DNA of 64,000 nt from Parus major (Eukaryota > Chordata > Aves > Passeriformes > Paridae), in NCBI RefSeq assembly GCF_001522545.3, contig NC_031783.1, positions 6,163,433 to 6,227,432 on the forward strand, given 5' to 3'. The notes under the pieces are model-generated. The model saw only the letters and a list, made by a program, of their open reading frames with translations. It was not told the DNA's origin and did no database searches. Shown piece after piece: positions 12,022 through 63,735 of the stretch; the stretch's first letter is position 1, and every line of letters begins with the position of its first letter. Made by a program: the position numbers and the translations under genes.

Positions 12022-12165
12022 TTACCACTGTGGAGGGACTTCCACAGGGACAAAATTCCGGTTGCACAAATGAACAAAAGCTGCTGCTAAAGTGCAGGCA
12101 GCCCCCAAGGCCGGGGAGTCACAGGTGTCCTGTGTACACATGGTGTAGAATGGCTCGGGCTCCAC
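12022..12165 (-). CDS. LLTP exon e58: Cys-rich C-terminal domain, last recognised exon
   Basis: Acceptor tgtgcccag. Encodes VEPEPFYTMCTQDTCDSPAL, GAACTLAAAFVHLCNRNFVP and VEVPPQ, a textbook C8-like ending with five cysteines. The exon then reads TG|gtaagt. Spliced there (border 12026), it would continue with a codon starting TG, probably Cys. Read through, it ends TGG TAA, i.e. Trp-stop at 12022. I give the read-through border because no downstream exon could be proven. Confidence 0.88.
   Translation of the reverse strand: MEPEPFYTMCTQDTCDSPALGAACTLAAAFVHLCNRNFVPVEVPPQW

Positions 12166-63735: not shown

Follow-up and report, generated by a model that had tools for sequence, protein, structure and literature searches.

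Accounts of vertebrate lipid transport are built on apoB, MTP and vitellogenin (VTG), and the human vitellogenin-N proteins have been drawn as apoB and MTP alone (PMC3406001, figure legend). The APO family, which comprises apoB, apoLp-II/I and apoCr, has a central DUF1081 domain and takes a tree position apart from VTG and MTP (PMC1783640). Lipidation of the fly member apoLpp is assisted by MTP (PMC3406001), and a review table gives APOB and LOC400499 as its human counterparts (PMC12561791). Here, we analyzed a Parus major locus whose gene, as judged from its sequence, is real, ancient and intact, and is a bird member of the known LLTP superfamily.

The window, which is the whole 64-kb stretch analyzed (G000:C16:6163433-6227432, NC_031783.1), belongs to an assembly of 1.02 Gb. 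The gene was first indicated by a long minus-strand exon chain, proposed by a mechanical model of splice sites and codons. When the same genome was searched with the Vitellogenin_N profile, two more exons were detected on this strand just past the right edge of the window, and the sequence used for the gene model was extended by 40 kb beyond that side. When the crude exon peptides were used as query, complete relatives were retrieved, of which the blue tit (Cyanistes) protein P0001 was the nearest among the matches listed; it is 97.8% identical to the Parus major protein over 3,860 aligned residues. Spliced alignment guided by P0001 resulted in a minus-strand gene of 73 coding exons, spanning window coordinates 83203 to 9917 and encoding 3,860 residues. 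The model lacks internal stops, its introns are of the GT-AG (71) or GC-AG (one) type, and its phases and splice sites are consistent. Of the 73 coding exons, 59 are located in the window (exons 15-73, 9917..63735, minus strand), and they account for 9,707 of the 11,583 coding bases. Exons 1-14, including Vitellogenin_N (loci L009 and L010), were placed by the same alignment outside the window, at 64466-83203 on the same strand, and exon 73 (9917..9932, minus strand), which holds the final four residues and the stop codon, was located with a sequence pattern modelled on the C terminus of P0001.

This stop-free model, together with the strong Pfam domains described below, confirms that the gene of the original prediction is real, and larger than reported. 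The limits given to it match exon borders, with exon 15 starting at 63735 and position 12022 falling four bases beyond exon 72, which ends at 12026, but exon 73 (9932-9917) at the C-terminal end had been missed. What had been read as the N-terminal end corresponds, within the window, to the open beta-sheet domain, which starts near residue 626; the true N terminus is located beyond the window, at 64466-83203.

The order of the domains is Vitellogenin_N, open beta-sheet, a DUF1081-like segment, PF21013, an amphipathic-beta body with tandem modules, amphipathic helices, VWD and C8, and a putative signal-peptide-like N terminus was read from the sequence. On P0001, Pfam placed Vitellogenin_N at residues 45-581 (E=9.6e-76; 5.4e-80 on the shark protein P0115), the open beta-sheet at 614-932, PF21013 at 1105-1628, VWD at 3608-3756 and C8 at 3793-3851. 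In Parus major, the open beta-sheet domain (Vit_open_b-sht, PF09172) is encoded by exons 15-19 (59602..63735, minus strand; residues ~626-934), with E=8.6e-54 on P0001 and 1.3e-45 on the bird's own exons. It is followed by a divergent equivalent of DUF1081 (PF06448) in exons 20-23 (57419..59467, minus strand; residues ~935-1101). This segment scored 17.5 bits in the concatenation of its own exons, below the Pfam cut-off of 25, and DUF1081 was not reported by Pfam in two full-length orthologs, P0001 and shark P0115. In profile alignments, residues 933-1104 nevertheless pair with the DUF1081-holding segments of mollusc rows (E=3.7e-14) and insect rows (E=2.3e-8), these and all other profile-alignment E-values being rough, because they come from our own small alignments. 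The predicted DUF1081-like region is weak by Pfam, and may be a divergent equivalent of the domain. Exons 24-33 (49007..56879, minus strand; residues ~1105-1628) encode PF21013, whose Pfam name, 'LOC400499 family', is taken from human LOC400499. This domain was matched end to end in P0001 (positions 2-527 of 527, E=3.8e-254) and gave E=1.3e-226 in shark P0115.

The long amphipathic-beta body (exons 34-62, 20724..48512, minus strand; residues ~1637-3346) was delimited by its beta-period hydrophobic moment, which exceeds the helical moment in all 100-residue bins between residues 801 and 3300, as calculated with differing window lengths and without a shuffled control. Within the body there are three tandem modules of about 117 residues (38689..41285, minus strand), identified by profile matches and tblastn, each of which corresponds to one phase-0 exon (41285-40935, 40369-40013 and 39039-38689). 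Aligned with each other as profiles, the modules gave E-values between 7.6e-17 and 5.7e-20, and their tblastn identity is 24-30%; profile alignment also revealed weaker copies across residues ~1800-2800. The next segment (exons 63-67, 17146..20168, minus strand; residues ~3347-3602) is amphipathic and alpha-helical; across the whole protein, the helical hydrophobic moment reaches its maximum here, at residues 3401-3600 (no shuffled control). The protein ends with a VWD domain (PF00094) encoded by exons 68-70 (14518..16081, minus strand; residues ~3605-3770; Pfam E=9.3e-12 on own exons, 2.9e-11 on P0001) and a C8 domain (PF08742) encoded by exons 71-72 (12026..12633, minus strand; E=8.9e-8 on own exons, 3.2e-6 on P0001). 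Thus, the long repeat body, the amphipathic helices and the vWD domain that had been predicted were all recovered, and the predicted Cys-rich tail corresponds to the C8 domain.

Survey of 41 aligned rows, i.e., the Parus major protein and 40 selected relatives, showed that a conserved stretch, AEYYR..R..ESPFE, immediately precedes VWD in most of them. Where sea star vitellogenin has CGLCG, the VWD motif of the family is G(L/I)(F/L)GTNDNE or near it. Among 130 vertebrate rows with 3,000 residues or more, 124 contain the pattern, the exceptions being P0016, P0018, P0046, P0074, P0076 and P0094, and the CGLCG cysteines are also missing from the seven insect-type apolipophorin rows P0171-P0177. 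The same 41 rows were surveyed for furin motifs. An R-X-K/R-R motif between residues 700 and 765, the position of the insect-type furin site, was found in just four of them; since this site is poorly kept, the mature protein is probably uncleaved and stays in one piece. Two other R-X-K/R-R motifs, at residues 3373 and 3591, flank the amphipathic helices (exons 19802-19598 and 17330-17146) and also occur in many birds. A polyprotein releasing a helical peptide through these two sites was considered and rejected, as the motif at residue 3373 is present in 10 of the 41 rows, all of them birds, and that at residue 3591 in 22.

Searching with the exon peptides yielded 296 related proteins, of which the best 120 were examined. 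The matches listed come from birds (palaeognaths, waterfowl and Neoaves), alligator, turtles, lizards, snakes, amphibians, monotremes, marsupials, sharks, sturgeons and paddlefish. Most of them are named 'uncharacterized protein' or 'hypothetical protein', and two are named 'apolipophorins' (P0109 and P0117). As counted by eye, all five domains occur together in one annotated protein in 96 of the best 120 of the 296, from birds to sharks. A second search, limited to about 1,067-3,395 aa for full-scoring candidates and including shorter pieces too, gave 49 proteins and added hippopotamus, whales, pig, cats, sheep, deer and hamster, as well as teleosts (plaice, anchovy and catfish), coelacanth and hagfish, the last two represented by N-terminal pieces (607 aa in hagfish and 574 aa in coelacanth). 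Scores in this search fell from 583 bits for hagfish to 404 for P0156, 201 for fish apoB and 173 for sea star vitellogenin. Conservation thus spans hagfish to mammals for the LLT module and sharks to mammals for the whole architecture. That the lineage was kept in birds in particular was not supported, as relatives of the same clade occur in all main vertebrate groups, including placentals; that it went unnoticed elsewhere agrees with the name 'uncharacterized protein' given to most relatives.

A relic confined to birds was rejected in view of the relatives from hagfish to placental mammals, and a loss in placentals and teleosts, as the first search had suggested, was ruled out by the rows of the second. 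No primates were among the matches listed in these searches, which were limited by length and shared words and have no bearing on loss. No galliforms are named among the best 120 of the 296, despite the waterfowl, palaeognaths and many Neoaves present, so that loss in Galliformes is possible. The Parus major genome also contains separate apoB, VTG and MTP genes. Besides MTTP (C4), it holds a second MTP-like gene (G000:C8:1563936-1565007; L025, L031 and L035-L036), the partial model of which groups with MTP at 100/100.

The bird gene is flanked by RMI2 on one side and LITAF on the other; we take the two neighbours to be these genes on the basis of their motifs. RMI2 (4437..5240, plus strand; part of exon 1 to ~4536, exon 2 at ~5092-5240) was placed by translation match and is a convergent, separate gene that serves as a syntenic marker, and LITAF was placed by translated motifs on the minus strand near 92.7 kb (window coordinates). 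A 250-N assembly gap (4187-4436) in a GC-rich stretch adjoins, and probably cuts, RMI2 exon 1. The region of the human LOC400499 SNPs presumably lies between RMI2 and LITAF as well. Two chromosome 16 SNPs have been assigned to LOC400499, one at 11.449 Mb (PMC10869499) and one, in an exome-association row, at 11.595 Mb (PMC10647220), each in the paper's own build. Judged from the Pfam name and the SNP positions, human LOC400499 belongs to the same PF21013 family and lies in this chr16 region. The six aligned placental rows have 3,198-3,347 aa, against 3,860 in Parus major, which is no proof of shortening because these rows came from the search limited to at most ~3,395 aa.

In the available text of the open-licence literature, which covers few subscription journals, the mentions of LOC400499 are incidental, and no study of the function of the gene was found. 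In a small GWAS of 451 people, a signal for HDL-cholesterol that was no more than suggestive was reported within an intron of LOC400499 (P=3.88e-6; PMC10869499), which we regard as a lead and not as proof. LOC400499 is also among the blood genes raised in incident myocardial infarction (PMC6607516), and appears in a proteomics list (PMC8066727), in an expression row of infected cells (PMC9864161), as a population-selection SNP (PMC10016042) and in an enhancer list (PMC12923038). Six ortholog LOC numbers gave no mention in the open-licence literature. The neighbouring genes in the expression table of the myocardial infarction study are presumably myeloid. Since the gene is annotated and a Pfam family is named after it, its existence is not new; what appears to be new is its recognition as an LLTP of the apolipophorin type with members from hagfish to placentals, a description that we did not find in the open-licence literature.

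Profile alignment was also used to determine how far the homology reaches. The LLT module gave E=4e-133 with six mollusc-type rows (one unnamed), 4e-102 with Penaeus BGBP (P0165) plus an unnamed protein (P0163), 5e-86 with seven insect-type rows (one unnamed) and 5.9e-54 with twelve fish apoB rows. The VWD-C8 tail matched insect apolipophorin rows (E=6.9e-30) and, weakly, sea star VTG2 (E=0.0024), and no profile match to it was found in the fish apoB rows. A further tail match (E=6.3e-24) was obtained with the sea cucumber protein P0178, named 'apolipophorins-like', which has VWD and C8; this points to an early presence of the tail in deuterostomes. PF21013, the body and the helices had no profile match in the apoB or apolipophorin rows, so that they either evolve fast or arose in vertebrates. 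Of the 21 introns in the LLT part, six agree with those of bird apoB and seven with those of bird VTG, with four near matches each; agreement means in phase and at most two alignment positions apart, and the apoB and VTG models are gene-finder predictions.

Searching the PDB with a four-sequence profile retrieved apoB-100 (7e-66), lamprey lipovitellin (5e-39), bee vitellogenin (2.1e-11) and MTP (6.4e-10); we regard a further hit, to PCNA (1.7e-5), as fortuitous. A single crude piece of 725 residues gave nothing significant in the PDB (lipovitellin, E=0.54). The N-terminal model of the frog relative P0143 has a mean pLDDT of 65.5, with residues 615-774 unreliable, and shows a strand-rich N-terminal part and a run of helices. 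When it was compared with the PDB, the 11 top-ranking structures were without exception LLTPs (lipovitellin, apoB, MTP and bee vitellogenin). No Rfam match was obtained within the 64-kb window, and NCBIfam, a prokaryote library, gave nothing above its cut-off. With an LLT module, a segment at the DUF1081 position, a long body and a VWD-C8 tail, the apolipophorin-type architecture that had been proposed is borne out.

Three trees of the N-terminal module were constructed, using 41 rows, 29 of those (leaving out long, short or near-duplicate rows), and 26 of those plus two MTP rows. In all three, the vertebrate relatives form one clade with hagfish basal (support 100, 99/99 and 100/99), and the branching inside it broadly follows species order, as expected of orthologs. 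ApoB forms a separate clade (100/100) that does not include the gene, and Parus major apoB (C3, with a giant exon) groups with fish apoB at 100. In the best trees apoB is placed outside with weak support (56/93 in the 29-row tree), and in the tree with MTP rows the APO node including the LOC400499 clade has support 83/51. Vitellogenins are apart in the best tree, and joining them with the LOC400499 clade was rejected (p-AU 0.030, a hypothesis set after the tree was seen). Forcing the LOC400499 clade and apoB together in the 29-row set cost 2.9 log units (p-AU 0.325, likewise set after the tree was seen), and adding P0156 to this group reduced the cost to 0.6 (p-AU 0.445). Because apoB, insects and vitellogenins are on long stems, long-branch effects are possible. 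The predicted LLTP lineage distinct from apoB and from vitellogenin is thus recovered, and no tree placed the gene inside either of them. In two of the three trees (support 83 with 41 rows, 81/80 with MTP rows), P0156, an unnamed marine protein, branches as the sister group of the vertebrate clade, and in the 29-row tree it has no firm position; it may be an invertebrate ortholog that would date the split from apoB.

How old the lineage is depends on its relation to apoB. A single apolipophorin gene may have been duplicated early in vertebrates or chordates, the LOC400499 copy keeping the VWD tail and apoB losing it, in which case the protein would still be an LLTP, but of a lineage no older than apoB. 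We consider this a serious possibility, somewhat short of an even chance. The joint clade with apoB was not rejected (p-AU 0.325, or 0.445 with P0156), six introns agree with those of apoB, and, since vitellogenins have VWD too, the tail, which may be an ancestral feature, cannot be used to date the split. The LLT profile, on the other hand, is farther from apoB (E=5.9e-54) than from mollusc rows (4e-133) or Penaeus BGBP (4e-102), although apoB is long-stemmed and fast-evolving, and the best trees, with weak support, set apoB outside. A vitellogenin-like yolk protein would fit the names 'vitellogenin' or 'vitellogenin-like' that P0123, P0143, P0149, P0150 and P0152 carry in their sources, as well as the seven introns that agree with bird VTG. 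We regard it as very improbable: the bird has its own VTG genes elsewhere in the genome, the joint clade was rejected (p-AU 0.030), and the gene occurs in placental mammals, which are not known to have yolk vitellogenins.

Fusion of at least two genes by annotation is hardly credible either. Two annotated relatives, P0063 and P0077, do carry a LITAF domain (PF10601), and joining errors may therefore happen at this locus, the neighbouring LITAF having probably been fused in by gene prediction. The 73 exons, however, have consistent phases and splice sites, the five domains occur together in 96 of the best 120 of the 296 rows, from birds to sharks, and the AEYYR..R..ESPFE stretch lies directly before VWD in most of the 41 rows. 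An immune or clotting lipoprotein similar to BGBP, in which the VWD-C8 end and glycans bind microbes or aggregate and lipid is secondary, seems unlikely. Of the invertebrate rows, Penaeus BGBP (P0165) is one of the nearer ones (297 bits when P0156 served as seed; profile E=4e-102), and LOC400499 was raised in blood in incident myocardial infarction (PMC6607516), but nearness of the lipid module says little on the ligand, and the two BGBP-type rows do not match the VWD-C8 tail.

The explanation that we favour, and consider likely, is that the gene represents the LOC400499 family in birds and encodes a large apolipophorin-type lipid transfer protein that was apart from apoB by the last common vertebrate ancestor. 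The most likely role of such a protein, as its domains suggest, is to scaffold an extracellular lipoprotein. It would be secreted via the predicted signal peptide and lipidated in the ER, probably with MTP and analogous to fly apoLpp, lipid entering the cavity of the N-terminal module. This module and the amphipathic-beta body would then wrap a lipid core, the part of the body in this being suggested by its amphipathic periodicity alone, as it has no profile match to apoB or apolipophorin. The amphipathic helices may bind the particle surface, the VWD-C8 end may mediate oligomerisation or binding to matrix or cells, and the resulting lipoprotein would be distinct from apoB particles. A bolder reading, possible but on balance doubtful, is that the vertebrate ancestor had a third extracellular lipoprotein scaffold, the true keeper of the apolipophorin line, which still makes its own particle in all vertebrates, including people; it would then have been missed because it was annotated as an uncharacterized protein (LOC400499). 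Another conserved carrier type, with a tail of its own, would amount to a missing apolipoprotein and be a candidate for studies of lipid disorders. As a member of the LLTP superfamily present across vertebrates, the protein has high biological potential.

Among the known systems, vitellogenin has the LLT module, a C-terminal VWD and seven introns in common with the gene, but the joint clade was rejected (p-AU 0.030) and its tail match is weak (E=0.0024). ApoB shares the LLT module and some introns; its fish rows gave no VWD-C8 match, it forms a separate clade, and in the bird it has one giant exon. Crustacean BGBP and mollusc apolipophorins have the closest invertebrate LLT modules (E=4e-102 and 4e-133, respectively) and no VWD-C8 match in the rows used, although all mollusc-type rows are shorter than 2,910 aa and came from a length-limited search, so that their tails may simply be missing. 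Insect apolipophorin II/I (apoLpp) shares the LLT module, the DUF1081-position segment, the long body and the VWD-C8 tail, and its VWD motif is likewise without the CGLCG cysteines. It differs in having a conserved subtilisin-like (furin) site after the LLT module, which is not conserved in the LOC400499 family, and in its rows running about 330 residues beyond the tail, with no sequence match to PF21013, the body or the helices. By profile comparison, the N-terminal module and the tail of the bird protein match those of invertebrate apolipophorins better than apoB.
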